DNA from: Paenibacillus donghaensis
GTDB taxonomy: Bacteria; Bacillota; Bacilli; Paenibacillales; Paenibacillaceae
Length of the DNA stretch: 64,000 bases
Reading direction: 5' to 3'
Assembly (NCBI RefSeq): GCF_002192415.1
Contig: NZ_CP021780.1
Location: 4,898,001 to 4,962,000, forward strand
This document shows, piece after piece, positions 16,539 through 55,501 of this stretch (positions are counted from its first letter, which is position 1; every line of letters begins with the position of its first letter). The notes beneath the pieces are model-generated. The model had not been told where the DNA came from and searched no databases. It saw only the letters and a list, made by a program, of their open reading frames with translations. Position numbers and translations under genes: made by a program.

Positions 16539-16640
16539 ATGGCAGAAGATAAGCCCAAGACGACTGTCATCACTATTGCAAATCAAAAAGGTATAACAGG
16601 AAAAACCACTACTGCCTACAATAATCGATATTTATTTTGA
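16539..16640 (+). pseudogene. parA stub (first ~28 codons) joined to the siderophore operon
   Basis: ATG 16539 opens 33 codons. Residues KTTVITIANQKGITGKTTTA match the start of ParA at 46190, whose Walker motif reads KGGTGKTT; here one Gly is Ile. Homology stops near 16623 and the frame runs out in unrelated DNA that overlaps the end of the permease gene. It is a deletion scar joining an ICE left end to siderophore DNA. Confidence 0.8.
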
Positions 16641-17639
16641 ACGCATCAATAGATATAGGAAGTAAGGCACACTCAGCATTGTTACAATAATCCCTGCGGG
16701 AATATCTGACTTAAAGCTGACCGTCCGAGCAATCGTATCCGCTACAAGCAGCAATAGCGCACCAATAAGCGCTGAAGTTGGTAGAAGTACTTTGTAGTCG
16801 TGACCTACCAGCTTGCGAGCCACATGCGGACTAATCAATCCAATAAAGAAGATCGAGCCCCCGAGCGCTACACAGCCAGAAGCAATGCCTACAGCCGCAA
16901 TCGCCAAACGCAAAAATTTCTTCTTTACAGCGACTCCTAATCCTATCGAAATTTCGTTGCCTAGCACCAAGACGTTCAATGTCCTAAAATTGGAAAGAAT
17001 ATATGCGAATAGCAGCAATACCCAAGGTGCCAACAAGCTGATATAAGACCACTTGTCCCCCCATAAATATCCGGCTTGCCAACGCTGCGCAAACTCATAC
17101 TTCTGGTCATCAAGCTTTAAGGTCAGGAATAACGACAGCGCACTTAACCCCATATTGATCGCAACACCAGTCAAGACAAGTCGTGTAGAAGAAATCATAC
17201 GACGTTTTCTATAGGCTAGAACATAAATCAGAGCTGCTGCCAGCAAACCACCCAAGAATGCCATAGATGGTAGTAATAATGTTATAGCGGTGCCTTGAAT
17301 GCTTACAGTTGAGATAATCAGCAACACCATAAGACCTGAACCTGAGCTAATACCAAGCATGCCGGGATCAGCCAGATCATTGCGCAGCAACGCCTGCATA
17401 ACAGCACCTGCCAGTGCCATCCCAAATCCAACAAGTATCGCTAATACAATCCGAGGAAGACGAAACTTATAAACAACGAGATTATGCTCATCTGGACCTT
17501 GTCCAAGCAATACTTGAAATACTTCAAGTGGATTGAGAGACACCTTTCCCATATTAAGACTAAGAATAGCTCCTGCAATAAGCAGTATTAAGAGAGATAG
17601 AATCCATATTGTAGCCTTATGCGATTTAACAACATTCAT
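16632..17639 (-). CDS. FecCD-type siderophore ABC permease
   Basis: The 335-residue polytopic membrane protein belongs to the BtuC/FecCD family. It shows family landmarks: RLPRIVLAILVGFGMALAGA, DPGMLGISSGSG, GSIFFIGLISPHVARKLVG and SDIPAGIIVTMLSVPYF. It carries ferric-siderophore across the cytoplasmic membrane as a heterodimer with the next gene. The start overlaps the upstream stop (ATGA). It is the last gene of the operon. No ATPase gene follows; the DNA after it is the parA scar. Confidence 0.92.
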   Translation of the reverse strand: MNVVKSHKATIWILSLLILLIAGAILSLNMGKVSLNPLEVFQVLLGQGPDEHNLVVYKFRLPRIVLAILVGFGMALAGAVMQALLRNDLADPGMLGISSGSGLMVLLIISTVSIQGTAITLLLPSMAFLGGLLAAALIYVLAYRKRRMISSTRLVLTGVAINMGLSALSLFLTLKLDDQKYEFAQRWQAGYLWGDKWSYISLLAPWVLLLFAYILSNFRTLNVLVLGNEISIGLGVAVKKKFLRLAIAAVGIASGCVALGGSIFFIGLISPHVARKLVGHDYKVLLPTSALIGALLLLVADTIARTVSFKSDIPAGIIVTMLSVPYFLYLLMRSK

Positions 17640-18685
17640 TTGAAGGCTCTCCTCTCTTTGCTCGCAATTAGCAAGAAGAAAGGAACACCAATCATTGCAA
17701 AAATAATGCCCAGTGCAGTCTCTGCCGGACGATTAATCAGCCTTCCTGCGATATCCGCCACAACCATAAGTGCGCCGCCGTAAATGGCTGATGCCGGAAT
17801 AATATAACGATAATCTACACCTACAAAAAAACGCATGATATGCGGTATAATCAGCCCTACAAAGCCGATTGGCCCTACAAGTGCAACAGCTACACCCGCT
17901 AGTAAAAGGACCGCAAGCGTAGCTATCATCTTAACGAGAACGATCCGTTGCCCGAAGCCTTTCGCGATCTCTTCCCCCAAGTTTAAAACAGTGATAGAGC
18001 GTGCAATAAATAGTGACAAAGCCAGCCCACCTAAGAACCAAGGTATAACTAGCCTAATTTCCACCCATGTTGCTCCAGCCACACTACCCGAAGTCCAATA
18101 AGCAAGGGCACGACCAATTCCATAGTTTAATGAGATAAATGATCCCACAGCTCCAAATAGCATTGTAATTGATATTCCAGCTAGCACCAGTCTTTGAGGT
18201 GTCATTCCTGAACGATTCAATGAAGCGGCAAGATACGTTAGTCCTGCACCAAGTCCTGCGCCAATAAAGCTAACTAGCAAGGTTGTCGTCTGCAGTTGCC
18301 CTGGAAGGAAAACTAGTGTAACGGCCATTGCAAGAGCTGCTCCTGCATTTACTCCCATTAATCCCGAATCGGCTAAGGGATTTCGCGTATATCCCTGCAT
18401 AACCGCTCCTGCTACCGCGAGACACATGCCCGCAATAATATCAGCCGCTATACGCGGAATACGAAGGGCATGAATAATCTGATGCTCGGTCAGTTCAGGA
18501 TCAAAATTAAAAATCGCTGTCCATGCCATCTTCAGGCTCATGGAAGCTGAGCCAAAAGAGATAGAAGCTGCTACTGAAAGCAGCAGCAGCAATATCCCTA
18601 GGAGTAAAAACAGACCGAAATACGATTTCCCTCTTAAATCAGGGATAACGGTTGTTCTATCATCTAGCTTTTTATTTTTTTTCAT
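17636..18685 (-). CDS. FecCD-type siderophore ABC permease
   Basis: The 349-residue BtuC/FecCD protein shows ALRIPRIAADIIAGMCLAVA, NPLADSGLMGVNAGAA, GPIGFVGLIIPHIMRF and PAETALGIIFAMIGVPFF. It partners the downstream permease. ATG 18685 overlaps the end of the upstream fusion gene by 14 bp, so translation is coupled. It is predicted to be Fur-controlled through the boxes at 20723 and 19731. Confidence 0.92.
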   Translation of the reverse strand: MKKNKKLDDRTTVIPDLRGKSYFGLFLLLGILLLLLSVAASISFGSASMSLKMAWTAIFNFDPELTEHQIIHALRIPRIAADIIAGMCLAVAGAVMQGYTRNPLADSGLMGVNAGAALAMAVTLVFLPGQLQTTTLLVSFIGAGLGAGLTYLAASLNRSGMTPQRLVLAGISITMLFGAVGSFISLNYGIGRALAYWTSGSVAGATWVEIRLVIPWFLGGLALSLFIARSITVLNLGEEIAKGFGQRIVLVKMIATLAVLLLAGVAVALVGPIGFVGLIIPHIMRFFVGVDYRYIIPASAIYGGALMVVADIAGRLINRPAETALGIIFAMIGVPFFLLIASKERRAFK

Positions 18686-20657
18686 ATGCTGACACTAGCT
18701 TCTCAACTACAAAATCTAGCTGCTTATCAAGAGAGTAGATATCGGAATAATATGAAAAATCAAACCCAATTTCGATCAATCTACCTTCTTTGATTGCTGG
18801 AATGCTGTTCCAAATTGGATTGTCCGACAAATCATCAGCCCCATCCCATACAGAGCGGAACACGAAGTCTCCTATATACTCAGGTAACACCTCTAAGGAA
18901 ACAAACCCTCCAGTAGCCTTCTCTCTGCCATCAATCTTTTTCTGAAGAATCTCTGGTGCTTTTAGCCCTAAATATTCATAAATGATCTGAGAACCCCTTC
19001 CGTAAAGCTTGCTATCGATCACCGCCATCTCTTTTTTGCCGCCCTCGATAATGGTTACTGTCTTATCCAAAATTCCAAGTTCATCAAGCTTCTGCTTACT
19101 CCTCTCCAACTTCTCGTGGAAATTATTTAATAGAGCCTGTGCCTCCTGCTCCTTGCCAAATACCTCGGCAATCTTCATTACACGTTCATCCGTCGCCATT
19201 TTTTCATAAGGAATTGGAACGGTCGGTGCAATATCCTTAAGGATTTCGTAAGTTTCTTCAGAAGCAGCTATGATCAAGTCCGGCTTTACTGCCATAATAG
19301 CCTCTGGATTAGGCTCATACCATGAACCTAGATCTTCAATCCCCCCCAGCTCTTCTGCAAAGGCCGCTCCTTCAAAGACACTCGAAGTACCTACTGGCTT
19401 AATGCCGAGGGCAACAAGATCCCCTTGAAGGTATAACACGACAACCCTCTCTGGATTAGCTGGAACGACAATATCTCCCTTTATCGTAGAGATGGTTCTT
19501 GTCTGAGCCTCCTTATTGGTATTGTCAGTTGCAGTTGAATTATTGGCTGGTGATGATGTAACTTCAGAAGCTTTGGATCCATTAGAATTCGTGGCATTAG
19601 AACCCACGTTTGCAGATCCACATGCACTCAAAAGCAAGGTAAAGCTAAGCAGCATCGCTACAATAAAACTTGATGTCTTTGTTATTCTCATAGGTGAAGA
19701 CCCTCCGGTTATTTCATTATGGTAATAGTATTGATAATGATTATCATATTCAATAATATTATATCGGGAGGATATGTGCTCGCCAATGGAGAATTTGGCG
19801 GTGGTTAATGGACGATTGTCCGATGAGCTCACCTGACTGCTTTCCTTGCGGAATCGGATGGGAGATTGACCATTATATTTACTGAATATACGACTGAAGT
19901 AATATACATCGCTATATCCAACTTCTTCTGCAATATCGCGAAGTGGAGCATCGGTACATCGTAATAGCTCTTCTGCATGTTTAAGCCGGAATCGTATCAA
20001 ATATTCAATCAAGCTGAACCCCGTCTCCCCTTTAAAGCGGGTTGATAAATGACGAGGGCTATAATTAAATTGCTCCGCTATAGATTCTAGTGATAAATTG
20101 TGACGATAATGCTCCTCAATATAACGGACAACCTGCCCAATGACATCCGGTTGCCTGAGGTTAATTCCATCCTTTGTGAACTGCTTCAATAATTCATGTA
20201 TAAACTGATAGAACAAGCCTTTAACTTGAATTCTTTCCAATAGGTTTCCTTGTGCCCAGAGTTGTTCCATTGCCATTAGTTGATAGTGCAGTGGCAATGG
20301 CTCCAAAGACTCGAAGCTATACTGCATCCGAAATGGATTGCTGCGTTCCAAAAGTCTTGCTAAATCCTTTCTTCCTGGTAAGGAGGCTCTATAGAATAAT
20401 AAATAGTATTCAAAAATCTTCCCTGCCTCTATGCTTAGTCTCATGCCCTTGCCACCATGCACAATAAAATGACGGTCGGCGTCGTAATCTATGCCGTTGA
20501 GACTCAAACTGGCCGTACCCCGCACACAGTAGATAAATCCACATGCTGGTAATATATAGCCTTGCAGCTTGTCCCCAGGCTCCATCAGAGCATGTCGAAT
20601 ATCAAGTACTTTAACAGCAGCATAATTCCATGCGAAAATATGATCTTCCAGCTTCAT
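18672..20657 (-). CDS. AraC regulator fused in frame to a siderophore-binding lipoprotein
   Basis: One open frame of 661 codons encodes an N-terminal AraC sensing domain (about 1-165) and an AraC double HTH (about 175-275; LSLESIAEQFNYSPRHLS and LRDIAEEVGYSDVYYFSRIF). A ~45-residue linker leads to an internal lipoprotein signal (M323, RITK, hydrophobic core, lipobox LSAC). The C-terminal part is a FepB/FhuD-type Fe-siderophore-binding domain (EVLPEYIGDFVF). The internal ATG at 19691 has its own GGAGGG site and a Fur box 40 bp upstream. A separate 339-residue lipoprotein is therefore likely to be made as well. B. subtilis Btr joins similar domains but without an exported signal. ATG 20657 is preferred to TTG 20687. 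Confidence 0.85.
   Translation of the reverse strand: MKLEDHIFAWNYAAVKVLDIRHALMEPGDKLQGYILPACGFIYCVRGTASLSLNGIDYDADRHFIVHGGKGMRLSIEAGKIFEYYLLFYRASLPGRKDLARLLERSNPFRMQYSFESLEPLPLHYQLMAMEQLWAQGNLLERIQVKGLFYQFIHELLKQFTKDGINLRQPDVIGQVVRYIEEHYRHNLSLESIAEQFNYSPRHLSTRFKGETGFSLIEYLIRFRLKHAEELLRCTDAPLRDIAEEVGYSDVYYFSRIFSKYNGQSPIRFRKESSQVSSSDNRPLTTAKFSIGEHISSRYNIIEYDNHYQYYYHNEITGGSSPMRITKTSSFIVAMLLSFTLLLSACGSANVGSNATNSNGSKASEVTSSPANNSTATDNTNKEAQTRTISTIKGDIVVPANPERVVVLYLQGDLVALGIKPVGTSSVFEGAAFAEELGGIEDLGSWYEPNPEAIMAVKPDLIIAASEETYEILKDIAPTVPIPYEKMATDERVMKIAEVFGKEQEAQALLNNFHEKLERSKQKLDELGILDKTVTIIEGGKKEMAVIDSKLYGRGSQIIYEYLGLKAPEILQKKIDGREKATGGFVSLEVLPEYIGDFVFRSVWDGADDLSDNPIWNSIPAIKEGRLIEIGFDFSYYSDIYSLDKQLDFVVEKLVSAYEKK
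19731..19747 (-). promoter_or_regulatory. Internal Fur box in the AraC-lipoprotein linker
   Basis: TTGATAATGATTATCAT contains a perfect 7-1-7 Fur site (TGATAATGATTATCA). It lies inside the reading frame, about 40 bp upstream of the internal lipoprotein ATG at 19691. Confidence 0.85.
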
Positions 20658-20722
20658 CTTTGCATTACACTCCGATCTGCTCCACAATCTATTTGAGTTA
20701 ATTATATCTTAAAACAATGATA

Positions 20723-20739
20723 TTGATAATGATTATCAA
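20723..20739 (-). promoter_or_regulatory. Fur box upstream of siderophore operon 1
   Basis: TTGATAATGATTATCAA is a perfect 17-bp palindrome with the 7-1-7 Fur core. It lies about 65 bp upstream of ATG 20657. Confidence 0.9.
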
Positions 20740-20828
20740 TTAGTATTAGGCAGTTCCTCAATTTTGTCAATCGCTGTTTAGTATCGTGCTTGCTTATTAC
20801 TTCGCATGAACTTTGAGAGTCATTAAAA

Positions 20829-20955
20829 ACATCGCCATGGATCTATGACCCTAATAGCGATGTTTCGTTTAGAAGTGGCGCTTCCTCAGGAATGCCTCTA
20901 TCTCATCCACATATCCTTTACTGTAATCTGTCTCGGTGCAACTAAATCCAATTTC
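20829..20955 (-). pseudogene. Unidentified gene tail with its terminator
   Basis: The minus strand encodes TDYSKGYVDEIEAFLRKRHF followed by a stop at 20869. A hairpin with a T-run (CATCGC/GCGATGTTTTT, about 20829-20862) follows. The upstream frame is broken. The parent family is not recognised. Confidence 0.35.
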
Positions 20956-21030
20956 TTATTCACGCTTGAAGTATGTTTCAAAAGTTTTCTCGGCACAGAC
21001 CATGAACGGAATTTTAAAAAAACATACAAA

Positions 21031-21063
21031 AAAGTTCATCAGAAATAGTATCTGATGAACTTT
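21031..21063 (-). terminator. Terminator downstream of the tRNA-Leu fragment
   Basis: AAAGTTCATCAGA pairs perfectly with TCTGATGAACTTT, with a T-rich run after it on the minus strand. It resembles the hairpin after tRNA-Lys at 28256. Confidence 0.65.
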
Positions 21064-21079
21064 GAGTTGATTTAGTTAA

Positions 21080-21129
21080 TACTGGTGAGAGGACTCGAAC
21101 CTCCACGGTTTCCCTCTCGATTTTGAGTC
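21080..21129 (-). pseudogene. 3' half of a second tRNA-Leu (CAA), att copy 3
   Basis: The minus strand reads GACTCAAAATC, a long variable arm, GGTTCGAGTCC and the acceptor CTCACCAGTA. Only the 3' half remains. The flank to the right (GCACATGCTATTCGGAAG) is shared with att copy 2 at 16521. It marks the border between segments C and D. Confidence 0.7.
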
Positions 21130-21324
21130 GCACATGCTATTCGGAAGATAGCAGAAGATCAGTCCAAGAAGAGGAATATAAAACCCGCGAAAAGCCTTGC
21201 AAAATCAAGGTTTTTTGTGGGTTTATATGTTTTTATCAAGCCCCGTAAGGGTTCGTGGCAATAACTCAAAAAGAAGCCGTTTTTAGACGACGGAAAGAAC
21301 TTTTGATAGAACAGCCCCGCTCCC

Positions 21325-21335
<11 letters not shown>
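21130..21335 (+). repeat. Left-end relic of the parA-type element
   Basis: The segment matches the parA leader at 45928-46160 in blocks, including GGAATATA, the short hairpin around CAAGG, and CCGCTCCCTACCATTGAC just before the break. Homology ends where the reductase remnant begins. It shows that segment D began as an element-F relative. Confidence 0.7.
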
Positions 21336-22792
<1,457 letters not shown>

Positions 22793-22796
<4 letters not shown>

Positions 22797-23650
22797 GTGG
22801 CAATCGACTCCATCTGTTCCTTAGCTTTTAGGAATCCTTGATCCACTTCTTGGTCTCTACGCTTATCACGCAATAGCTCGTACGTCACATACACCGGTCG
22901 CCCTGTTCGTGGTTCCAGCATAATCTCGGCATCAATGGCAAACACCTCACGCAGCGTCCGTACCGTCATTACACGCTCTGGCGAGCCATGCTCCACCACC
23001 TGGCCCTCACGAATCGCCACCATATAGTCGGAGAAGCGCGCTGCCAGATTCAGGTCATGCAGCACCATCACAATCGTCACCTGCTGACTGCGATTCAGTT
23101 CATAGAGCAGTTCCAGCACTTCAAGCTGATGCGCCAGGTCCAGATAGGTGGTGGGTTCATCCAGCAGGATCAGATCGGTCTGCTGGGTGAGCGCCATCGC
23201 AATCCATACGCGCTGACGCTGACCGCCAGAGAGCGTATCGACCTCACGATGCTCAAACGCTGTAAGCTGTGTAACCGATAGGGCCCAGGTGACTACTTGC
23301 TTATCCTCTTTGGAGAGCTTGCCGAAACCTCGTTGATGAGGAAAACGCCCATAGGCGACTAATTGACCGACCGTCAAACCGCTAGGTGCGGTTGGCGTCT
23401 GCGGCAGAATCGCCATCTGCTTGGCCACTTCCTTGGTGGACAGTGTGCGGATATCGGCACCATTCAGATAAACCGTGCCATTTTTCGTCTTGAGCAGCCG
23501 ACCGACTGCCTTTAGTACGGTTGATTTGCCGCATCCATTGGGACCAATAATCGAGGTAATCTGTCCACGCGGAATCTGCAAATCCAGTTCTTTTACGATA
23601 AGCGTGTCATTATAGGCAATATCGATTTGTTGCGCTGTAATACTTTCCAT
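22793..23650 (-). CDS. FecE-type siderophore ABC ATPase
   Basis: The 285-residue ATPase has Walker A GPNGCGKST (about 34-42), the Q-loop in MAILPQTP, signature LSGGQRQRVWIAMAL, Walker B LILLDEPTTYLDL and switch His VLHDLN. It powers the two upstream FecCD permeases of operon 2. It is the only complete importer ATPase in the window and could also serve operon 1, which lacks one. The start follows the permease stop by nine bases. Confidence 0.93.
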
Positions 23651-23659
23651 GACGTCCTC

Positions 23660-24673
23660 CTAATTAGCCTTCGCTAGTAAATAAAGAAAGTACGGAACAC
23701 TGATGACCGTAATGACGATTCCCGTCGGCACATCTCCCCCCAGGCTAACCGTGCGCGTAATCGTGTCAGCCAGCACCACGACTAATCCCCCGGTCAGGCT
23801 GGCAGCCGGAACGAGCAATTTGTGATCGGGCCCGACCAGTTTTCTTGCCATATGCGGAGCGATCAAGCCAACGAAGAAGAAGCTTCCGCCAACAGCTACA
23901 CTGCCAGAGGATAAAGCAACAGCAGCGATCGACAACCCCAAAAACTGCCGCTTCACGGAAAGACCCAGCCCTTCTGCCGTCTGATTGCCCAGATGGAGGG
24001 TGTTCAGCATGCGAGCCTTGTAGAAAATATAGCCGAGTAAAATCAAGACCCATGGTGCCAGTACGGAAATATAGCGCCAATCATCGCCCCACAAGCTCCC
24101 CGCCAGCCAGTGCAGCATGAAGTTCATCTGCGAATCATCCAGCTTGAGTGTCAGGAAGGTGGTCAGCGCCCCATACCCGCTTCCGAGCGCGACCCCGGTT
24201 AAGATCAAACCGATTGGCGAGATGTTTCGCCCACGGCGATACGATAATAAGAAGATCAATCCCGCCGCCAGCAGGCCGCCAACAAAGGCCAGCAGTGGCA
24301 GGGCAATAAAGGAACTCTTTCCTGTCGATGCGATGAATACGACGAAGAACAGGACAAACAAACCCGATCCCGAACTAATCCCCAGTGTCCCCGGACTAGC
24401 CATGTCATTGCGCAGCAAACTCTGCATCACGACCCCAGCCGCTCCCATTCCCAGACCTACCAAGATCGACAGTACGATTCGTGGCATTCGAAAATCGAAC
24501 AGGATCAGATTTTGCTTGTCGGTGCCGTTTCCCAGGAGAACGTTCAGCACTTCTAGCGGTGAAAGATTCATCTTGCCAGAATTCATGCTAATGACAGCAA
24601 ACATAAGGATGAGCACCATAAGCACTACATTGACGATGATACCCCGTTGCACCGTATAACGCTGCTTGATCAT
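23660..24673 (-). CDS. FecCD-type siderophore ABC permease
   Basis: The 337-residue BtuC/FecCD protein shows DFRMPRIVLSILVGLGMGAA, SPGTLGISSGSG, GSFFFVGLIAPHMARKLVG and GDVPTGIVITVISVPYF. It overlaps the upstream permease by four bases and pairs with it. It is clearly similar to the operon-1 permease at 16632, so the two operons are related duplicates. Confidence 0.93.
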   Translation of the reverse strand: MIKQRYTVQRGIIVNVVLMVLILMFAVISMNSGKMNLSPLEVLNVLLGNGTDKQNLILFDFRMPRIVLSILVGLGMGAAGVVMQSLLRNDMASPGTLGISSGSGLFVLFFVVFIASTGKSSFIALPLLAFVGGLLAAGLIFLLSYRRGRNISPIGLILTGVALGSGYGALTTFLTLKLDDSQMNFMLHWLAGSLWGDDWRYISVLAPWVLILLGYIFYKARMLNTLHLGNQTAEGLGLSVKRQFLGLSIAAVALSSGSVAVGGSFFFVGLIAPHMARKLVGPDHKLLVPAASLTGGLVVVLADTITRTVSLGGDVPTGIVITVISVPYFLYLLAKAN

Positions 24674-25695
24674 TCAAATCCCCTCCTTTGCCTGCGAGCC
24701 AGGAAGAGAAAGTACGGCACACCAATGATAGAAAATATAATGCCAATCGGTGTTTCGAACGGCTTATTGATCAAGCGGCCAGCCAGATCGGCCGATACGG
24801 TCAGCAACGCACCATATAGCGCAGCCGCCGGAATGATGTACCGATAGTCGACACCGATTATGTATCGCACAATATGCGGGGTAATCAGACCAACAAAACC
24901 GATCGGGCCAACCACGACAACAGCCAATCCAGTCAGCACGAGCACGATAATCGTCGATAAACCCTTGACCAGTCCGCTGCGAATACCGAGTCCACTTGCC
25001 ACATCATCCCCCAAACTGAGCAGTGTAACGGAAGGAGATAGCGCCAGCGCCAGCAGTACACCACCAACAAATAGGGGTGAGATAATCAGTAATTCCCCCC
25101 ACTTGGCCCCCGCTGTACTGCCTGCCGTCCAGAATGCCAATGCTCGACCCAGGTTGTAATTGATCGCCAAATACTGACTGAGTGCGCCAAACAGCATGGA
25201 GATGGACAGTCCTGCCAGTACCAGCCGCTGAGGTGTCATCCCGCGCTTGCCCAGTGACGCGATGAAGTAAGTGATCCCGGTCGCGAGCGCTGCTCCCAGA
25301 CAAGCAAACAGCATCATCTGCCCATACGAATAACCCGGTAGAAAGGCCAGGCAAAGCGCAATCGCGAATGCTGCCCCAGAGCTGATCCCCATCAGCCCGG
25401 AGTCGGCCAGCGGATTGCGCGTCGTCCCCTGCATGATCGCACCACAAACCGCAAGGCTGCACCCGACGATCAGATCGGCTACGGTACGCGGAAGACGTAG
25501 GGTTTGAATAATTTGATGTTCAGTGAGCGTTGGATCAAATCGGAAAATAGCCTCCCATGCAGTCGCTAACCTCATATCGGCGGCGCCCAAGCTAATCGAC
25601 GACGCCGACATGAGAACCGTTAATCCAAGCCCTACCACCATGTACATGGTGAAGTTCACCGCCCCACGGCGATTTTGTTCAGGCTTGTTTTTCAT
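24670..25695 (-). CDS. FecCD-type siderophore ABC permease
   Basis: The 341-residue BtuC/FecCD protein shows TLRLPRTVADLIVGCSLAVC, NPLADSGLMGISSGAA, GPIGFVGLITPHIVRY and PFETPIGIIFSIIGVPYF. It is homologous to the operon-1 permease at 17636. It starts about 80 bp after the fusion gene and is translationally coupled to the next permease. Confidence 0.93.
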   Translation of the reverse strand: MKNKPEQNRRGAVNFTMYMVVGLGLTVLMSASSISLGAADMRLATAWEAIFRFDPTLTEHQIIQTLRLPRTVADLIVGCSLAVCGAIMQGTTRNPLADSGLMGISSGAAFAIALCLAFLPGYSYGQMMLFACLGAALATGITYFIASLGKRGMTPQRLVLAGLSISMLFGALSQYLAINYNLGRALAFWTAGSTAGAKWGELLIISPLFVGGVLLALALSPSVTLLSLGDDVASGLGIRSGLVKGLSTIIVLVLTGLAVVVVGPIGFVGLITPHIVRYIIGVDYRYIIPAAALYGALLTVSADLAGRLINKPFETPIGIIFSIIGVPYFLFLARRQRRGFE

Positions 25696-25775
25696 CGTAT
25701 TTTCCTTCCCTCACCTATTGACAGCCTAGTTTGAACCAAGGCCTATAAATCGTTAAACACATCAGGATCAATCCC

Positions 25776-27743
25776 TTATTTAGCTAATGCCAGCAATTGA
25801 TTGACAATATGATCAATCAATGCACTGGAAGTCATTATATCCGTGGACCAAGATAGCGATGAACCCACCGTTACGATCCGATTATGTTGCACAGCAGGTA
25901 GCGATTTCCAAACCGCATTATCAGCAGGAACTTCCGTATCTCCTAAGGAGATCAAATAATCCCCCATGTAAGCGGCCAAGACCTCCATAGAGATCTCTCC
26001 CCAATATTTATCTGCGTCAATAATATCAGTTTGAACTTTTGACGGTGCCTGCATTTGAAGTTCATTATAAATAAGCTCGCCAACCGCATGCTTGGCTCCA
26101 GCGATGGCGTTAATTTTATCACTGAATTCTCCCATAGTAATCGTCACGTCTGAAAGGCCTGCATTCTGAAGGGCTAGCTTCGCTTCTTCGATTTTGTTGG
26201 CATAAGTATTCAAAACAGCCTCAGCCTCTTCCGGCTTATTCAAAACATCGCCAATAAAATGGATCCGCTCTTCTGTAGTCATATCACCATAAGGGACATA
26301 AATTGTCGGGGAAATTTTGGATAAATCTTCATAATTCTCTTCGCCCCATGCTAATATGATCAGATCAGGCTCAAGAGTCATGACATCTTCCGGCTCCATT
26401 TTTATGTTAATTGAATCTTTAATCTGGTTAGAATAAACAGCCTCTGTCTCGCCCCTTGTCGCTCTCGCCACACCTAGAGGAGTTACACCTAAAGCTACCA
26501 CATCACCAACCAGATAATCGACTACAACACGCTGAGGGTTGTTAGGTACCTCAACATCACCCTTTACTGTGGATATCGTTCTGGTCTGCGAGACTGCTTC
26601 TGAAGCTTTCGTCTCCGGTACTTCCGGTTGTGTCGTCTGTTGTGTCTCCGCAGGCGGATTCACCGTTCCCCTGTTATTCGCTGGCGTCCCCGACGTACAT
26701 GCCGTCAACAACAGCATCAAGCTCATCGCCGCCACAAAGATCATTTCTTTACTTCTTACTTGTCCAAACATGCTTGATTCCCCATCTCTATAAGACTTGA
26801 CTAGATTCGCCAGTTCCCTCTCATTGTAATGAAGATGAGAATCATTATCAATACCATCAACCTGCATGGATAGTGCGTTTATTTTCCGATAATCACTCGG
26901 CGTCATCTTGTAATACTTCTTAAACATCCGAAACAGGTTCTTCTCATCAGCAAAACCAGATCCTGTTGCTATCTCTTTAATGGTTGCTTCTGTATACTTC
27001 AAGTCATGACAGGCAGCTTCAATCCTTCTCTGAATGAGGTACTCCTGTAAGCTCATCCCTTCCTTCTTTTTGAACAACCGCGTCAATTGCCCACCACTGA
27101 TCCCAAACATGGCGGCAATATCCTGAAACATAATCGGTTCCCTGTAATGTTTATCAAGATATATTTTGGCAGAACTGGCTGGAATGGGCTGGAGATAGCG
27201 AATCTCACCACCCTCAAAATCTCTGTACACCCCATGAATCAATTGATATAGAAAACTTTTGGCCTGAAGCTGATCCATCGCCTTGCCGCGGTTCCAGTCA
27301 TTCAACATTTGTTGAAACCAATCGAGCAGCAAGATGGGATTACTTGGTGTATAACCAAACTGTTGAACAAATGGATTTACTTGCTCCAGTAATTGCTGCA
27401 GGTGCTTCTTGAAAAAAAGAGGTGATTCTGCTTTATAAAAGACCATAAAGGTCTTCACAATCTCCCTTTTAGGCGAAATACTGAGCAGGCTCCCCTTCCC
27501 GCCATGAACTAAACCGAAGCGTTCCATTCCAAATGTGGTTTCATTCAGTTGAATTTGCGCTTCACCTCCACAGGCATAGATAAACATGCTACTAGGCATT
27601 TTATACTGCTCCAAAGGGTATTGGGACGCTATATTCTGAAAGCGTACATCTATTAATGTAATGATCGAACGTGTCCAAATGCGGGCCATCGTATCGATCA
27701 TCTCCGGTGTAAATACCTGGCTTGCTTCTGCTTCTTCTTGCAT
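25776..27743 (-). CDS. AraC regulator fused in frame to a siderophore-binding lipoprotein (paralogue)
   Basis: The single 655-codon frame has the same layout as the gene at 18672. An AraC sensing domain is followed by a double HTH (IMFQDIAAMFGISGGQLTRL and IKEIATGSGFADEKNLFRMF), a linker, an internal lipoprotein signal starting at M325 (lipobox LTAC) and a Fe-siderophore-binding domain. The internal ATG 26771 has a modest GATGGGG site and a Fur box 65-79 bp upstream. ATG 27743 is preferred because GGGAG precedes it. Reaching the lipoprotein start at nearly the same residue (323 and 325) in both paralogues suggests the open linker is maintained. Confidence 0.85.
   Translation of the reverse strand: MQEEAEASQVFTPEMIDTMARIWTRSIITLIDVRFQNIASQYPLEQYKMPSSMFIYACGGEAQIQLNETTFGMERFGLVHGGKGSLLSISPKREIVKTFMVFYKAESPLFFKKHLQQLLEQVNPFVQQFGYTPSNPILLLDWFQQMLNDWNRGKAMDQLQAKSFLYQLIHGVYRDFEGGEIRYLQPIPASSAKIYLDKHYREPIMFQDIAAMFGISGGQLTRLFKKKEGMSLQEYLIQRRIEAACHDLKYTEATIKEIATGSGFADEKNLFRMFKKYYKMTPSDYRKINALSMQVDGIDNDSHLHYNERELANLVKSYRDGESSMFGQVRSKEMIFVAAMSLMLLLTACTSGTPANNRGTVNPPAETQQTTQPEVPETKASEAVSQTRTISTVKGDVEVPNNPQRVVVDYLVGDVVALGVTPLGVARATRGETEAVYSNQIKDSINIKMEPEDVMTLEPDLIILAWGEENYEDLSKISPTIYVPYGDMTTEERIHFIGDVLNKPEEAEAVLNTYANKIEEAKLALQNAGLSDVTITMGEFSDKINAIAGAKHAVGELIYNELQMQAPSKVQTDIIDADKYWGEISMEVLAAYMGDYLISLGDTEVPADNAVWKSLPAVQHNRIVTVGSSLSWSTDIMTSSALIDHIVNQLLALAK
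26836..26850 (-). promoter_or_regulatory. Internal Fur box in the second AraC-lipoprotein linker
   Basis: TGAGAATCATTATCA matches the 7-1-7 Fur consensus with one mismatch. It lies inside the open frame, about 65 bp upstream of the lipoprotein start. Confidence 0.75.
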
Positions 27744-27801
27744 CAATCCGCGCTCCCTCATCTCACTTTTCCCAATTTATATACCGACCATAAATTGATT
27801 T

Positions 27802-27816
27802 TGATTATCATTATCA
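27802..27816 (-). promoter_or_regulatory. Fur box upstream of siderophore operon 2
   Basis: TGATTATCATTATCA lies about 60 bp upstream of ATG 27743. It sits within overlapping GATTATC/GATAAT hexamers typical of Fur sites. Confidence 0.8.
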
Positions 27817-29260: not shown

Positions 29261-29561
29261 ATCCAGGTCTAAATTCTCAAAGAGCGATAAGGTCCAAAGC
29301 CATCTCCTCTCTTCAAGGTATAAGTACGCTTTTAAGCCGTAAAGAAATTGAAAAAGAAAACTTAGCAGAGCAAGGTATTGAGAAATGAATTACGTATTAA
29401 ACAATAGGGACATAAAGAATATTTAGACCATTAGGCATGAGAAAATAATCGTTTTTTGTAACAAAATCTCAGAAAGTTCACATAAATAGGAAGGTAAATT
29501 CTATCAGGAATAGAATTTCAAGAATATGCAGGAGAATATACTCAGTGAAGGAGAGAATTAT

Positions 29562-30593
29562 ATGACTTATTACCCAATACTTAAAATCTCAAATGCAGAA
29601 ATGGGAGCTTTGGAGCATTTAAAAGAAGAGACTATCGATTGGATAACTCCAATTCTAGAATCTAAAATAATTGCTAAAGATAAAATTGAACAATGGTGGA
29701 CTACTTTTCGAACATTAGGAAAGTACTTAAGGGGAAAAATAGGAGAAATGACTTTTATTTATGATTTCTCTTCAGCCTTTGAAAAGATAGGAGAGATTCG
29801 TCAATTAAAAGATCAAAATGGTTTTGATTTAGTTCAGCATTGTATTATGGCAATGGAGGAAGCACAGTTAAATTTTATTCCTTGTGTACATTTCGATTCC
29901 CCTGAATGGTTTATAAATTCTGTGTTGACATCAAATTCTGAAGTAATAGCAGTTAGAATTCGATGTCATGCTTTTAATTCTCCTATGGAGGAGATTGTTC
30001 AAAAGCGGATTCTTGAAGAAATTATTGGACTAAACAATGAAAAAAAGTATATTCTCATACTTGATTTTTATAATTCTCCAATAAGCCTCACTCGTATGGA
30101 AACTTCAATCAAAGTTTTTTCCAGTCTCCCCTTTCAAAGAATTGTATTTGCATTGACTTCTTGTCCAGAAGATGCAAACAAAGCAGCCCCAAATTCATTT
30201 ACTCTAATCTGTCAAAGAGAAGACTTGAAAACGTTTAGAAAGTTACAAGAAGGCTATCCATATATTGAGTATGGAGATTATACCGTAAGATTAAAGCCAG
30301 AATTTGAAGGAAATGATATAAATTACTATAATACTTATTTGAAATTATTCTATACCACAGAAGATGATTACTATATTGCCAAATCTAGTATATTAGAAAA
30401 AAATGGAGTAGAGAGTTTTATAGCCATATGTCAGGAAATAATAGAAAGTGATGTTTATTCAGGGGCAGACTTTTCATACGGCGATTGGGCAATTAAAGAA
30501 TGTGCTGAGAAAAAACTCATTATCAGTAACCATCCCAAACCAATTGAGTTTGGGATAAATCATCATATTGAACTTACTGCAAGGTTGTTATAA
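29562..30593 (+). CDS. Beta family protein (phage T4 beta-protein-like)
   Basis: The 343-residue protein begins TYYPILKISNAEMGALEHL, the signature start of the Beta_protein family, which is also paired with sce7726-type proteins. ATG 29562 follows AAGGAGAGAATTAT; the longer frame from 29526 has a poorer context. No signal peptide or membrane segment is seen. The family is common in defence and prophage islands but its biochemical role is not established. It converges on the sce7726 gene with a 6-bp overlap of the stop regions. Confidence 0.7.
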   Translation: MTYYPILKISNAEMGALEHLKEETIDWITPILESKIIAKDKIEQWWTTFRTLGKYLRGKIGEMTFIYDFSSAFEKIGEIRQLKDQNGFDLVQHCIMAMEEAQLNFIPCVHFDSPEWFINSVLTSNSEVIAVRIRCHAFNSPMEEIVQKRILEEIIGLNNEKKYILILDFYNSPISLTRMETSIKVFSSLPFQRIVFALTSCPEDANKAAPNSFTLICQREDLKTFRKLQEGYPYIEYGDYTVRLKPEFEGNDINYYNTYLKLFYTTEDDYYIAKSSILEKNGVESFIAICQEIIESDVYSGADFSYGDWAIKECAEKKLIISNHPKPIEFGINHHIELTARLL

Positions 30594-34037: not shown

Positions 34038-34775
34038 CTATGCATCTAATAGTTGCTTAAAATTATTTTTCAAAATATCATTTACTGAATCTAATTCGAT
34101 CCCTTTGATTTTTGATAAGCCTTCTTCAATTCTTATTATAAAATCTAAATTATATAGCTTTTTAGTAGCTTTAGTAAATGGCGCATCACTCTCAATTAAA
34201 ATTCTATCTAAAGGCATGTTTTTTATTAATTCCATTCCTTTCTTACTATTAACCATGTCTAAGTTAACAGAAAAATAATGTCCATTATTTATGGCTAACT
34301 TTAACTCAGTAATATTTCCACTGAACCAGTGCATTATTACCTTACCATTAAACGAATCACCTATTATTGATAGTACATCATTGACTGCTTTTCTACTATG
34401 AACAGTTAATATTTTTTCTCCATATTTATTACACTGGGCAATCAACTCTGCGAAGGCATTACGTTGCACTTCTCTGTTATTAAGATCTTCTTTAACATAA
34501 TCTAATCCCACTTCCCCAATATATTTAGAATTCTTTATATTTTTAATCAGGAGTGGTAACTGGTTTTTATATTGAAAAGCTAATTGCGGATGTAAACCTA
34601 AAGCGAAACGAATGTACTTTAAATTTAGATATTCTCTACAATATTTTTCATATAAGGAAGGTAGGTTTGTCACTGCTATTGTATATGATTTATTTAACTC
34701 AATGTAATCAATAACTTCATTAATATTTTTGTATAAATCTAAATGCATATGTGTATCAAATTTAAAGTTATTCAT
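34038..34775 (-). CDS. qatD: QatD, TatD-like DNase of the Qat system
   Basis: The 245-residue TIM-barrel metal hydrolase shows TatD motifs: FDTHMHLDL (HxH), IGEVGLDY, TVHSRKA, MHWFSG and ESDAPF. It is the fourth gene of a four-gene operon in canonical order A-B-C-D and overlaps qatC by four bases. QatABCD is an established antiphage system. The TatD-like component is thought to act on nucleic acid, but its exact role in defence is not known. Confidence 0.9.
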   Translation of the reverse strand: MNNFKFDTHMHLDLYKNINEVIDYIELNKSYTIAVTNLPSLYEKYCREYLNLKYIRFALGLHPQLAFQYKNQLPLLIKNIKNSKYIGEVGLDYVKEDLNNREVQRNAFAELIAQCNKYGEKILTVHSRKAVNDVLSIIGDSFNGKVIMHWFSGNITELKLAINNGHYFSVNLDMVNSKKGMELIKNMPLDRILIESDAPFTKATKKLYNLDFIIRIEEGLSKIKGIELDSVNDILKNNFKQLLDA

Positions 34776-36073
34776 TTAATCCTATTCAGCACCTCTCCCA
34801 ATTCCTCCATACCTCTTATGTAAATTTGTGCATATTTATCAATATCTGCTTTTATTGGACCTGACTTTTGCACAGATAAAAACGCAGTTTTTTCTTGATA
34901 CTTGTTTAATCCCAACATATAGGAATTAAAATTCACCTTGGCAGTCTCACCACTTTTAAAGTCAATATCTCTGTAAACAGTATAATCCTTAAATCCTGAT
35001 TTAAGAATTGCCGCCCTTCTAATAACACAGGGCAAACAATTTCCACAGTGACATGCTTCCTTTTCACCTAACATCCTACCATGATCTGGATGTGAACAAG
35101 ACATTGTATTAGATATATTTCTCTTTAAAAAATTCATATTTTTACACTCTAAAATCATTTCACCCTTTGTTTTAAATTGGTACGGATTACGAATACTAAT
35201 GGATAATCCCAACTTTTGAATAAGTGTTTGTAACATATCTAAGTAATAAGGATGGGTTGTACGTGTACTACTACTTCCTAGTCGTGAATTTGTTAGTGGT
35301 ATATTTAATGAAATTAAGCCATTCTCAGGTATTAATAATTCAATGCTTGTATTAATACTTGTAGCTAGAGCTATCGCATGGCAAAAAAACATAAATGATC
35401 GTGTTCTAGTTGTATCTTCTTTACCATCCCTAGCTGCTGCATGGAAACTGAAAAACTGATCCTCATTAACCGTATATTTTTTATACAATTTAGCCTTTAA
35501 TAGATCCTGGTATTCCTTTACACCTTTTCCTCCACCATAGTGACTGACAAATAAAACGTTATCACAACATTCTTCCAATGCGTCAATAGCTCCGATAAAG
35601 GAGTCCAAGCCTCCAGAAAACATACAAATTTTTTTTACATCAAGCTCTTTTTCAACACTTCTTTTTTTATATTTCTCTCTAGCTCTAATTTCCATTTGAG
35701 TATACTCTCTACTTCTAAAAATAATATTCCACTTATCTCCACTTAAATAATTCAGCATTTGTTCGAGCAATTCTTTATTATTATTCCATTTATCCAATTC
35801 TAGTACGGGTATATATAAATTATACACTCGTGTCCATGAGTCATAAGTAGAATTTCTGTCGCTAATTCTATCTGCACCAAATACAAATAAGGAAATATAT
35901 AAAAAATCCAACCCAATGTTAGAAATAAAATTCGGTAAGTTTATTAATTTTTTTATAGACTCTTTACTCCAAAATGTATAAGTGTATTGTCCGCTGTTAT
36001 TAACATTATATTCAATAAAATGAGAGTCTATAACAAAATCATCCGCTTCACTTAATTTGCAAACAATATTCAC
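34772..36073 (-). CDS. qatC: QatC, QueC-like ATPase of the Qat system
   Basis: The 433-residue protein has the PP-loop motif MFSGGLDSFIGA (about 150-161) and a C-terminal zinc motif (CSHPDHGR, then ACHCGNCLPC) as in the 7-cyano-7-deazaguanine synthase QueC. Its N-terminal 145 residues are an extra domain absent from housekeeping QueC. QueC-like proteins in defence operons may adenylate or modify protein termini or nucleobases; the target here is unknown. It overlaps qatD and qatB by four bases each. Confidence 0.9.
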   Translation of the reverse strand: MNIVCKLSEADDFVIDSHFIEYNVNNSGQYTYTFWSKESIKKLINLPNFISNIGLDFLYISLFVFGADRISDRNSTYDSWTRVYNLYIPVLELDKWNNNKELLEQMLNYLSGDKWNIIFRSREYTQMEIRAREKYKKRSVEKELDVKKICMFSGGLDSFIGAIDALEECCDNVLFVSHYGGGKGVKEYQDLLKAKLYKKYTVNEDQFFSFHAAARDGKEDTTRTRSFMFFCHAIALATSINTSIELLIPENGLISLNIPLTNSRLGSSSTRTTHPYYLDMLQTLIQKLGLSISIRNPYQFKTKGEMILECKNMNFLKRNISNTMSCSHPDHGRMLGEKEACHCGNCLPCVIRRAAILKSGFKDYTVYRDIDFKSGETAKVNFNSYMLGLNKYQEKTAFLSVQKSGPIKADIDKYAQIYIRGMEELGEVLNRIK

Positions 36074-36888
36074 AAACTCACCTCCAGCACTTCATAGCAT
36101 TCTCTATACAAATTGCCAATGATACTATCAATACTTTTATCGTTATAATCCAATTTACTCATTTTAATATCATCGAACTTTATTTCAACGGAAACCTTAA
36201 CGTATTCTCTTATTTCTTTTTCTTTTTGCAACGCTATTTGAGCATTATCCGCATATCTTTCAAATCTACTTTGCAAATCGTTTAACATTCTTTCGAATAT
36301 GTAAGTACTAACGTAACTTCTCATAATTTCATCAAATATGACTTCATTCATTCTATCTAACGACGTAATATCCATTTGATTTTCCTCGATAAACTCATAG
36401 ATCATACACTGAACCTCAATAGTAGCATTTCTAGCTATAATATCTTCTTTTGTGTCAGAATTCGGCGATATCAGATTTACTATTTCGGACAACAACGTTT
36501 CAATACTTTTACCGATATAATCGATGTGCAGCTTCTCAAAAGTTCTTAGTATACCTATTTGACTAATACTTAAAAGTAGTCTTCCAAGTTGTACAGTTGA
36601 GCTTTTTCCTGAGATAGCTTGATTTGAAGCAGCTCTTGAACCTCCTGATGCTTTAACATAATTACTTACAACTCTTCCTCTACTATTAGAACTTCCGGTT
36701 ATATACTGAGACATTGCTTTTTTTGTTTCTTGCCAAGAACCTTTTACTGGAGTATCCTCCTTTTCAGGATTATTACTATTTTCATCATCAGCTTTGCTTT
36801 CTTGGTCATTATCCAAATCATCATTGAATCCTTCTGGTAGTAATGGATTTCTATCGTTTGGACCTCCATATATACTTGATGTCCCCAT
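36070..36888 (-). CDS. qatB: QatB component of the Qat system
   Basis: The 272-residue protein has a low-complexity polar N-terminus (about 1-75, rich in D, N, E and S) and Gly/Ser/Ala-rich segments such as KASGGSRAASN. The C-terminal half is helical and ends LYRECYEVLEV. It has no catalytic motif. Identity rests on size and on its position between the KAP ATPase and the QueC-like gene. It may be the substrate or scaffold of QatC. Confidence 0.82.
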   Translation of the reverse strand: MGTSSIYGGPNDRNPLLPEGFNDDLDNDQESKADDENSNNPEKEDTPVKGSWQETKKAMSQYITGSSNSRGRVVSNYVKASGGSRAASNQAISGKSSTVQLGRLLLSISQIGILRTFEKLHIDYIGKSIETLLSEIVNLISPNSDTKEDIIARNATIEVQCMIYEFIEENQMDITSLDRMNEVIFDEIMRSYVSTYIFERMLNDLQSRFERYADNAQIALQKEKEIREYVKVSVEIKFDDIKMSKLDYNDKSIDSIIGNLYRECYEVLEVSL

Positions 36889-36899
36889 GTTCTCCCTCC

Positions 36900-38717
36900 T
36901 TATCTTCTAAACTCTCTTTGTATCATAGCTGATAAAGACGTATTTTCTACTGACCAACGCTCAGTTATTTCTAAAACCTCGAGCTGTTTATTAGATTTAT
37001 CCATGAAATCCTTTACTAACTTTATTAGTGCAGGAGTTAACCGCTCTCCAGACAGTCCGGTTAGATTACTTAAAACATTTGAATATAAAATCTCCTTGGT
37101 CTTTCCCCAATCTAAAAAAGCTTTAAAATTATCTGTATCTATGCTAGTGTCTGAAACAATCTTTGTAAAAACAGCTTGGAGTATTTCACCCGATTCAGAA
37201 TCATTGATTTCTGTCGACATTTGAAGAGCTTCAGTTGTGCCCGTCCTTGTTTTACTTAACAATTTTCCAAGGACTTTTTGAGCCTTCGGACTTAATTTTA
37301 CAACACTTGTATCAAATCTTTCGTCTAAAGAGGATCTTGAAAAATAAAAGTAAGGCATCAGATCTATATCAGATAAATAAGGATCGATATTACACCAATC
37401 CTGTACCCATGCGTCGTCCTTCCACAACTTTAATTCATTAGACTCAGTTAATTGTTTAGATTCCAGTAGTTTCAGCTCTTGAGGTTTACCTTGTTCACTA
37501 GATGCTAATTGGGCTATTTGGCGAAATAATGGAGACTTAAAATACTCAAGCATCATTATTTTCGCAAGTATCTTTCTATCTAATTGGACATCCTTGTACC
37601 AAGCCATTTTTTCTCTCATAACCAAAGAATTTAGAAACCTTTTGCAATGCCTTGGGTTACCATTTAGTCCATTGGCTAGAACAGAAGAGAGTTGTTTAGC
37701 AACTGATAAGCTATCCTTTACTTTCTCAGCTAATTCGGGCAGTGAAGCACTGAGTACTGAATAATCTATAGAGAAATTAAGAAAATTGCTTCTTTTTTCG
37801 GCATTTATAAAATTCATCATTTCTTTAAATTCATCATTAGTTAAGTCCTTTTCAAATAATAGGCAGGTAATATACAGTTCAACTTCTTTTGAATTAAGCC
37901 TTGGAATCCTAATTGGATACTGAATAATTTTTTCAAGGTATTCTTTGCCTATGTCAATTTGATGACCTTCTATTTTATCAAATTTTCTCTTGACGGCATA
38001 AGAAATATGTCTTTCATCAGCCCCAACAATAAATATTGAATTACCTGTAAACAAAAATAGCCTAATCGCTTCTAGCGTCTCAAGAATTGTTTCTGGACTA
38101 CAACGGTCTAATTCGTCAATAAATATTACCAATCTTTTAATGCTTGTTTCTTTTAACAACACTGAAAAGTTCTTTTGGAATTCCTTTATATCTTCTCTTA
38201 TTTCTTTATTGCTTAATTCATCTTTCATTCCTTCAATAATACTCTCTGTTTCTAAGTCTTCTGATTTTTCTTTAACTTTCGAAATTACATTATTCAAAGT
38301 TATATCTGCTACTGTTCCGATTCCTCCAGTTAAAAAAAAATCCGCACCATATTTCAGACCGTTTTTTAACAGTTTTAATTTATCAACACTCTTGTATAGC
38401 CCTTTTATACATTTTAAAGCCTTCTCGCTCAACTTTGTTTTTTGCTGAATAGTATCTAAAATACTCCCCATCAATGCAGTCTTAGCATCTTCGTATCCTT
38501 CAAAGAGCCATCCATTAAACACCATACATATTGTATCTTTATCATCTTCAAAGCTTTTCATGCTCATACTTATTAAACTGGATTTTCCACTTCCCCAATC
38601 ACCATACACCCCCACGCTGGAAGGCAATAATGTTTCATCAGCAATAATATCTTTAAGAATATTGATTAAATAATCAAAATCTAAAAAGTCAAGTTCTGTT
38701 TCACTATCTTTCCACAT
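36900..38717 (-). CDS. qatA: QatA, KAP-family P-loop ATPase of the Qat system
   Basis: The 605-residue KAP NTPase has Walker A YGDWGSGKSSLI (about 40-51) and Walker B RLVIFIDELDRCSPETI near 205-221, characteristic of the family. A region after Walker A (about 85-125) may associate with membrane. It is the first gene of the operon, with ATG 38717 behind GGGGGATAG. The four-gene set appears complete and uninterrupted, so it should be functional. Confidence 0.9.
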   Translation of the reverse strand: MWKDSETELDFLDFDYLINILKDIIADETLLPSSVGVYGDWGSGKSSLISMSMKSFEDDKDTICMVFNGWLFEGYEDAKTALMGSILDTIQQKTKLSEKALKCIKGLYKSVDKLKLLKNGLKYGADFFLTGGIGTVADITLNNVISKVKEKSEDLETESIIEGMKDELSNKEIREDIKEFQKNFSVLLKETSIKRLVIFIDELDRCSPETILETLEAIRLFLFTGNSIFIVGADERHISYAVKRKFDKIEGHQIDIGKEYLEKIIQYPIRIPRLNSKEVELYITCLLFEKDLTNDEFKEMMNFINAEKRSNFLNFSIDYSVLSASLPELAEKVKDSLSVAKQLSSVLANGLNGNPRHCKRFLNSLVMREKMAWYKDVQLDRKILAKIMMLEYFKSPLFRQIAQLASSEQGKPQELKLLESKQLTESNELKLWKDDAWVQDWCNIDPYLSDIDLMPYFYFSRSSLDERFDTSVVKLSPKAQKVLGKLLSKTRTGTTEALQMSTEINDSESGEILQAVFTKIVSDTSIDTDNFKAFLDWGKTKEILYSNVLSNLTGLSGERLTPALIKLVKDFMDKSNKQLEVLEITERWSVENTSLSAMIQREFRR

Positions 38718-48439: not shown

Positions 48440-48475
48440 GAGTCACACGATCCATAGGAAGGGAGGATAACCATC

Positions 48476-55404: not shown

Positions 55405-55501
55405 AAGTATTAAATCACCGTCCATTCATATTCTTTATTGTACTTCAATAAACTGAAATTATTCGCGGCGTAAGTTGCAATCTAAGGGGAGAGCATGAGT
55501 A

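Follow-up and report, generated by a model that had tools for sequence, protein, structure and literature searches.

Two AraC genes continue in frame into siderophore-binding lipoproteins

The window analysed here, a 64,000-nucleotide stretch of the Paenibacillus donghaensis genome, carries two genes on the minus strand, A and B, each of which runs without a stop codon from an AraC regulator through a linker and a lipoprotein signal into a siderophore-binding domain (SBP). Both frames match HTH_18/HTH_AraC together with Peripla_BP_2 in Pfam and are open throughout. The frame of gene A spans 18672–20687, its likely start at ATG 20657 giving a protein of 661 residues (74.7 kDa), and that of gene B spans 25776–27761, with a likely start at ATG 27743 and a product of 655 residues (73.5 kDa). 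In gene A, the AraC half, comprising an N-terminal domain and the helix-turn-helix (HTH; residues 1–280, 19818–20657; Pfam and model), is followed by an in-frame open linker that is predicted to be disordered (residues 281–322, 19692–19817) and by an internal lipoprotein frame from ATG 19691 (18672–19691; 339 residues, 37.1 kDa). This frame begins with a signal peptide or transmembrane helix and a lipobox (19620–19691), whose cysteine is residue 346, and holds an FhuD-like SBP (18678–19508) recognised by Pfam, sequence profile, fold and model; the SBP matches 3hxp by sequence profile (E=1e-83) and 4b8y by fold (E=1e-19). Gene B has the same layout, with an AraC half at 26883–27743 (Pfam), an open linker at 26772–26882 and an internal lipoprotein frame from ATG 26771 (25776–26771; 331 residues, 36.0 kDa; lipobox cysteine at residue 349). 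A first-pass annotation of this DNA had described both frames as passing from regulator to lipoprotein without a stop, which translation and Pfam domains bear out, and had placed the lipoprotein starts at residues 323 (A) and 325 (B) of the full-length proteins, the positions that we recomputed. Six genes of this architecture occur in the P. donghaensis genome, A and B included, and the same gene plan is present in four Lysinibacillus species.

Both genes lead into uptake operons, also encoded on the minus strand. The end of gene A overlaps by 14 bases with a first FecCD permease gene (17636–18685), without a separate SBP gene in between, and a second FecCD gene follows (16632–17639; Pfam). 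Operon B comprises two FecCD permease genes (24670–25695 and 23660–24673) and an ABC ATPase gene (22793–23650). Among 143 fused genes, the first downstream gene was a FecCD-like match in 22, another queried gene in 7 and neither in 114, where the stretch examined was about 500 bases for many.

The linker contains Fur-like, promoter-like and start elements

Fur-like boxes lie upstream of both genes, as an exact 7-1-7 match for gene A (20724–20738, minus strand) and at 27796–27816 for gene B, where the match at 27802–27816 has one mismatch. The further claim of the first-pass annotation, that a Fur box and an internal ATG are embedded in each linker, holds for both genes: the linker box of gene A is exact (19732–19746; the coding frame reads DNHYQ) and that of gene B has one mismatch (26836–26850). 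Across the window, 13 Fur-like matches with at most three mismatches were found compared to 4.6 expected, a count reached in 1 of 100 shuffles. The linker of gene A additionally features a −35-like hexamer TTGGCG (19781–19786) 17 bases ahead of a −10-like TATAAT (19758–19763), as well as a ribosome-binding site GGAGGG (19701–19706) ahead of the internal ATG, all on the minus strand. The case is weaker for gene B, which has a weak ribosome site (GGGG, 26780–26783, minus strand; site-match score 0) and no clear internal promoter, inspection of its linker by eye revealing no −35/−10 pair as clear as that of gene A.

A survey of 98 genomes of the genus yielded 118 matches, spread over 41 of them. 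The linker Fur-like box is present in 116 of these 118 fused frames, always in the same reading frame, and 98 have a Fur-like match upstream (at most 3 mismatches of 14). The −35/−10 pattern was detected in 34 of 43 representative linkers, compared to 35 of 385 control windows and 142 of 2150 shuffles, and was absent from the other nine representatives. Taking as internal start of each representative the start codon closest to 22 residues before the lipobox cysteine, we found one 21–25 residues ahead of the cysteine in all 43 (37 ATG, 5 GTG, 1 TTG); ribosome sites of at least 5 bases precede 20 of these 43 starts, compared to 49 of 529 other in-frame ATGs. The first-pass annotation had proposed to check in homologues whether the linker stays open and shows synonymous-site constraint at the Fur box. 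Both hold in the alignment: the linker stays open, and the synonymous difference pooled over nine orthologue groups is 0.085 for the Fur-like box and 0.21 for the ribosome site, compared to about 0.45 in the flanking domains. Comparison thus shows that elements resembling a promoter and an operator, together with a ribosome site and a start, are conserved in the linker, and the consensus matches make these genes candidates for control by Fur. An AraC operator was sought in the upstream alignment of four groups, where the Fur box and promoter could be seen and nothing nameable besides.

The unbroken frame is maintained across the genus

As most linkers appear to hold a complete internal unit, the locus might be read as two ordinary neighbouring genes that produce a separate AraC protein and a separate lipoprotein, the gap between them being open by chance and the fusion serving no use. 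The frequency of stop codons speaks against this. Nine orthologue groups (96 sequences) have accumulated 997 linker substitutions, for which 39.5 nonsense changes are expected and none is observed. All 143 fused frames have a linker that is open in frame, compared to 28 open in +1 and none in +2; these frames had been preselected as single ORFs of roughly at least 600 residues, so the fairer test is provided by the 118 genus matches, which were all read across stops and contain no linker stop. The three broken matches carry their lesions elsewhere, L083 in the SBP and two others, L003 and L025, in their AraC halves. The last two, of which L003 lies in the P. donghaensis genome itself, have a stop there and an intact lipoprotein, so the lipoprotein alone can persist. 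When the AraC half alone was used as query, 78 of 81 matches at E<=1e-80 lay in frames of at least 625 residues, long enough for the fusion, and the remaining three (L164, L165 and L166, all from genome G137) are frameshifted. These three were considered as split versions and rejected, since their frameshifts also break the SBP or signal region; relatives of L164 and L165 (L176 and L177) are intact. Among 29 representatives below 55% identity, linkers stay open in a mean of 3.9% of mononucleotide shuffles. Linker indels fall into seven patterns, all of whole codons, a count that is no independent evidence because the alignment took in-frame sequences only.

The amino acids of the linker are weakly constrained, which counts in favour of two separate genes. 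Strong protein-level constraint was sought in the nine groups and not found: pooled pN/pS is 0.71 (0.62–0.84) for the linker, 0.35 for the AraC N-domain and 0.21 for the HTH. Relative to two frame controls, linker pN/pS lies above both in two groups (L001x, the group of gene A, 1.85; L032x, 0.97), is at or above one control in three further groups (L024x, L034x and L076x) and lies below both in the remaining four. The two-gene reading also gains from the outgroup locus L169, in which an AraC gene ends in a stop and is followed, in the same frame, by a similar linker and a lipoprotein. L169 is a true split version, and its AraC belongs to a distant AraC-only group. Together with L171 and L173 it shares the gene order of the fused genes and differs from them in having its AraC frame closed by a stop codon, and it alone of the three additionally shares their frame, Fur-like box and linker. 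Stops are tolerated in related pairs of an AraC or Btr-type gene and a lipoprotein gene (L163, L169, L171 and L173), which also speaks against the two-gene reading of the fused loci. The expected and observed stops, the AraC-half search and the 118 genus matches together lead us to reject a frame open by chance; on the same stop counts we rejected the accidental gap as the main reading and keep it as a very improbable rival. Comparison shows the fused, unbroken frame to be under selection at the level of sequence, in line with the earlier suggestion that its retention in both paralogues means that it is used. Frequent linker stops, named by the first-pass annotation as the finding that would contradict it, do not occur within the clade, the one linker stop being that of outgroup L169.

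The smallest clade of the AraC tree to contain all 51 fused ORFs has low support (0.33) and also includes eight untyped ORFs, one Btr-type ORF (L163) and two AraC-only ORFs, L160 and L025, both of which are broken fused genes; in L160, the second gene carries a deletion that starts at the Fur box and extends into the SBP. In the SBP tree, SBPs of the fused, free and Btr types are intermixed, so SBPs seem to have been exchanged among the gene types.

The fused proteins differ from Btr-type proteins by an export signal and a glutamate pair

Each of the 118 fused frames has a hydrophobic stretch and a lipobox-like cysteine, which lies in the sequence LSAC in 71 of them and in a close variant of it in the others, and the internal product accordingly has the signal peptide with lipobox cysteine of Peripla_BP_2 lipoproteins. 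In the full-length protein the same stretch is predicted to form a membrane helix between the DNA-binding and sensor parts, with a mean hydropathy of 1.8 and a positive N-terminal flank; over 143 frames, the mean net charge of the 16-residue flanks is +2.2 on the N side and about 0 on the C side, and the N side is the more positive in 127. With such features the full-length protein would be expected to enter the membrane. Once inserted, it could be a precursor for lipobox cleavage by signal peptidase II, yielding the lipoprotein and an AraC half that stays membrane-bound or is later released, while the internal promoter just adds lipoprotein. The cysteine present in every frame agrees with this reading and cannot separate it from one with two products, because the short product needs the cysteine anyway; as cutting would part the sensor from the regulator, we consider a precursor unlikely.

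The SBP also carries two glutamates, which we take to be the permease-docking pair from the role of such residues in BtuF and FhuD. All 176 fused SBPs and all 22 free lipoproteins examined have both, whereas none of the 11 signal-less Btr-type AraC-SBP proteins has the pair, a single one being retained in some of them (the second in 4 of 11, the first in 1 of 11). Comparison shows that the fused SBP keeps the residues that transport is expected to need. With FhuD/FeuA-type lipoproteins it has the SBP fold, signal, lipobox and glutamate pair in common, and it differs from them in being encoded, in frame, by the 3' portion of an AraC gene.

A single chain with an N-terminal domain, an AraC HTH and a domain resembling a siderophore SBP is likewise found in Btr of Bacillus subtilis (NCBIfam NF049932, TranspRegBtr) and in Btr-type proteins, and their genes, like the fused genes, adjoin siderophore-binding or uptake genes. 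The fused proteins score far below the NF049932 cut-off of 900 bits (P0001, 78 bits; P0002, 61 bits). They have HTH and SBP in one chain, whereas the Btr-type ORFs examined here join the two, often by few residues, without the signal and lipobox that stand between them in the fused genes. The Btr-like relative lacking an internal export signal, to which the first-pass annotation had pointed, is therefore real and a distinct neighbour, and the fused genes are best read as a new variant within the Btr kind of AraC-SBP regulators. No description of the AraC-linker-signal-SBP arrangement was found in the literature searched, part of it available as excerpts; databases name these proteins either AraC regulators or binding proteins.

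This kinship raises the question of whether the full-length protein acts in the cytosol on imported siderophore, as Btr would, leaving the signal stretch to serve the short product only. Btr requires bacillibactin as co-activator (PMC5504672) and has a FeuA-like sensory domain (PMC9609785). Btr-type proteins occur in the same genomes and in relatives (L007, L163 and L198), and L163 pairs a Btr-type sensor, whose SBP groups with that of gene A, with a separate lipoprotein from the SBP clade of gene A, so at that locus a cytosolic sensor can be sufficient. Yet a helix of such hydropathy and flanking charge would be expected to insert, and the glutamate pair sets the fused SBPs apart from Btr-type ones, although it might be retained just for the sake of the short product. 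On these grounds we regard a cytosolic mode of action as rather improbable.

A probable membrane-spanning sensor and transport lipoprotein from one gene

We consider it probable that one gene encodes two proteins with a common binding domain: an AraC-SBP sensor that spans the membrane, and a free lipoprotein for transport. Expression from the outer promoter, which has a Fur-like box, would yield the full-length protein, its AraC part in the cytoplasm, the disordered linker as a tether, a single helix crossing the membrane and the SBP outside. The second promoter, Fur-like box, ribosome site and start, lying in frame within the tether, would provide the lipoprotein alone, which would feed the FecCD permease. 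Low iron would open both promoters, and loaded siderophore on the tethered domain would act through the AraC half to activate the gene's own uptake operon. Fur control, the two proteins, membrane insertion, sensing outside the cell and activation of the own operon are each inferred in this scheme. Since the docking residues are kept, the receptor may sense while docked on the permease.

CadC and ToxR are membrane-spanning one-component regulators. The topology proposed here would resemble theirs, with the DNA-binding part inside, one helix and the sensor outside; their DNA-binding and sensor families are different, and here the sensor would also be made free for transport. We lean towards a widespread class of transmembrane AraC proteins in Paenibacillaceae and Lysinibacillus, in which an outside siderophore receptor and a transport lipoprotein are joined through an in-frame second, Fur-controlled promoter.

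If this is true, sensing and uptake of a siderophore are coupled in one gene via one binding domain, so the specificities of receptor and transporter cannot drift apart. The known Btr sensors would then be joined by transmembrane AraC receptors for extracellular siderophores, and these genes would be a clear example of a coding frame within which a promoter, an operator, a ribosome site and a start codon are all conserved. Either database name, AraC regulator or binding protein, conceals half of the gene, and the six copies in P. donghaensis make the question testable in a single strain.

Two regulator genes run open into lipoproteins

Two genes on the minus strand, ORF A (18672-20687) and ORF B (25776-27761), each encode an AraC regulator open into a Peripla_BP_2-family lipoprotein. 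As the first-pass annotation had proposed, no stop interrupts either frame; the internal ATG codons lie at residues 323 (A) and 325 (B), giving predicted products of ~75 and ~37 kDa. The Fur-like box it had described is likewise present in the linker of each gene, and there is also one upstream of each. Two FecCD permease genes lie downstream of gene A and of gene B, with an additional ABC ATPase gene in operon B, and no further siderophore-binding domain (SBP) gene was found between gene A and its permeases.

Beside operon B (21300-22800) lies an ABC exporter half that ends early and matches only the membrane domain, adjoining what appears by eye to be a flavoprotein reductase remnant, possibly a deletion scar. 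Elsewhere, the window carries a complete-looking Gabija pair (59111-63071; GajB-like UvrD helicase and GajA-like OLD/TOPRIM ATPase) and a Qat defence system (34038-38717), whose QatA (36900-38717) and QatC (34772-36073) match PADLOC models and whose two adjoining ORFs may be QatB and QatD. A protein at 29526-30593 with a PD-Lambda-2_C match is a candidate defence component. The region 46025-56569, which encodes a ParA-like ATPase, a ParB-like protein, a protein of 2202 aa that matches both methylase (Eco57I) and SNF2 helicase families and then an NA37 nucleoid protein, looks like a further defence or mobile cluster.

The fusion is a family

The Paenibacillus donghaensis genome (8.54 Mb, one contig) contains six fused genes, the five others sharing 34-49% identity with gene A. 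A genus search (E<=1e-90) gave 118 matches in 41 of 98 genomes, and a family search (E<=1e-75) gave matches in at least 71 of 196 genomes and at least 11 of 17 genera; among the family matches listed, one (in G177) is a separate lipoprotein and not fused. Among the best 120 of 222 listed, named records come from Paenibacillus, Cohnella and Lysinibacillus, among others, and the same gene plan is seen in the DNA of four Lysinibacillus species. Ranking by full-length score is biased towards fused genes, so a further search used only the AraC half as query (alignment A1; 59 family genomes) and gave 108 matches at E<=1e-45. At E<=1e-80, 78 of 81 lie within frames of at least 625 aa, their fusion status being judged from frame length; the remaining three, all in one genome, have frameshifts that damage the lipoprotein as well. 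Of the 27 weaker matches, nine have frames of 524-609 aa and sixteen have frames of 280-323 aa; the frames of the last two are long (681 and 662 aa). Both of the nine that were inspected (L010, L174) are Btr-type, having no signal between the HTH and the SBP, and the 681-aa frame (L175) is fused and has a lipobox. The AraC-linker-signal-SBP fusion is thus a family and not just the pair in the window.

Tandem arrangements also occur, as a trio of fused genes in one genome (L047, L075, L109; G070:C1:2316542-2322964) and a pair in Lysinibacillus (L199), with equal-sized ORFs in L200 and L201.

Stops are absent from the linker

Across nine orthologue groups (96 sequences), parsimony placed 997 substitutions in the linker, among which 39.5 stops would be expected given their positions and none was seen. 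Since these sequences had been preselected as unbroken, all 118 genus matches were also read across stops. Internal breaks occur in three, in the AraC half (L025 and the P. donghaensis paralogue L003, G000:C1:2872327-2874276, which has one in-frame TAG, an open linker and an intact lipoprotein) or in the SBP (L083); none of the 118 has a linker stop. The question raised at first pass, whether the linker stays open among homologues, is answered affirmatively for these genus matches. Among 143 fused frames without a break, 28 linkers are also open in +1 and none in +2.

Pooled linker pN/pS is 0.71 (0.62-0.84), against 0.35 and 0.21 in the AraC parts and 0.15 in the SBP. Compared with two frame controls, it falls below both in four of nine groups, is not below one in three and exceeds both in two, one of these being gene A's own group. 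The linker amino acids are thus only loosely conserved, and the case for selection on the fused frame is the absence of stops, not amino-acid conservation.

A putative internal gene start in the linker

A Fur-like box (<=3 of 14 mismatches) is present in 116 of 118 linkers, always in one same frame (116/116), read as D-N-H-Y-Q or near. Two fused loci, L133 and L135, have no recognisable linker box; in both, the frame is still open and the ribosome site and the start are retained. When 42 representative linkers were aligned on the box, TTG stood out near -40 (55-64% per base) and ATG at +40 (69-83% per base), with T-rich bases resembling TATATT near -17 and a G-rich site near +28 between them. 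Of 43 linkers, 34 carry a -35/-10 pattern, versus 35 of 385 equal-length windows elsewhere in the same genes. The gene A linker carries TTGGCG and TATAAT, 17 bases apart; the internal elements of gene B are weaker (one box mismatch, poor ribosome site, no clear promoter). Pooled synonymous difference is 0.085 at the box, where the earlier reading had proposed testing for constraint, 0.21 at the ribosome site, 0.27 in the remaining linker and ~0.45 in the domains. Pattern and conservation together suggest that the linker holds a second, internal gene start.

The fused binding domain looks built for transport

The nearest solved relatives of the fused SBP are FhuD-type ferrichrome and hydroxamate binders. 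Two SBP glutamates, which we take from their role in BtuF and FhuD to be the permease-docking residues of the superfamily, are present in 176/176 fused SBPs, 22/22 free lipoproteins and 6/6 cut or broken SBPs (all non-identical SBPs of the loci examined, many closely related). The pair is found in 0/11 Btr-type proteins, of which four keep the second alone and one the first; these 11 are spread over several SBP-tree branches. Retention of the pair in fused SBPs and its absence from Btr-type proteins make the fused SBP look fit for transport, unlike a cytosolic sensor.

Groupings differ between the AraC-half and SBP-half trees, which suggests that binding domains may have been swapped behind a common AraC-linker-signal module.

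Comparison with Btr and a proposed mechanism

Bacillibactin activates Btr (PMC5504672), which has a FeuA-like sensory domain (PMC9609785). The fused genes share the domain order of Btr but have an export signal and score far under the NF049932 cut-off. In another genus, L163 has a separate lipoprotein gene after that of a Btr-type sensor. The SBP of this lipoprotein groups with that of gene A, and two SBP copies serve there for what a single one seems to do in gene A. At L169 a stop ends the AraC part, after which a linker, Fur-like box and lipoprotein of similar kind continue in the same frame, an arrangement that illustrates how the fusion could be gained or lost. No account of an AraC-SBP fusion with an internal export signal was found in open-licence papers; as far as that literature goes, the fused genes are a new variant of the Btr kind.

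The structure model of the full-length chain (mean pLDDT 81, pTM 0.46) shows two halves folded apart from each other, a linker modelled at low confidence and a helix spanning residues 329-346. This stretch is hydrophobic, and net charge is higher on its linker side in 127 of 143 frames, so that the AraC half is predicted inside and the SBP outside. The sequence by itself fits membrane insertion, cleavage at the lipobox or a Btr-like stay in the cytosol, since the short product needs the signal anyway. We favour membrane insertion, whereby one gene would give two products, an AraC-SBP sensor spanning the membrane and a free lipoprotein.
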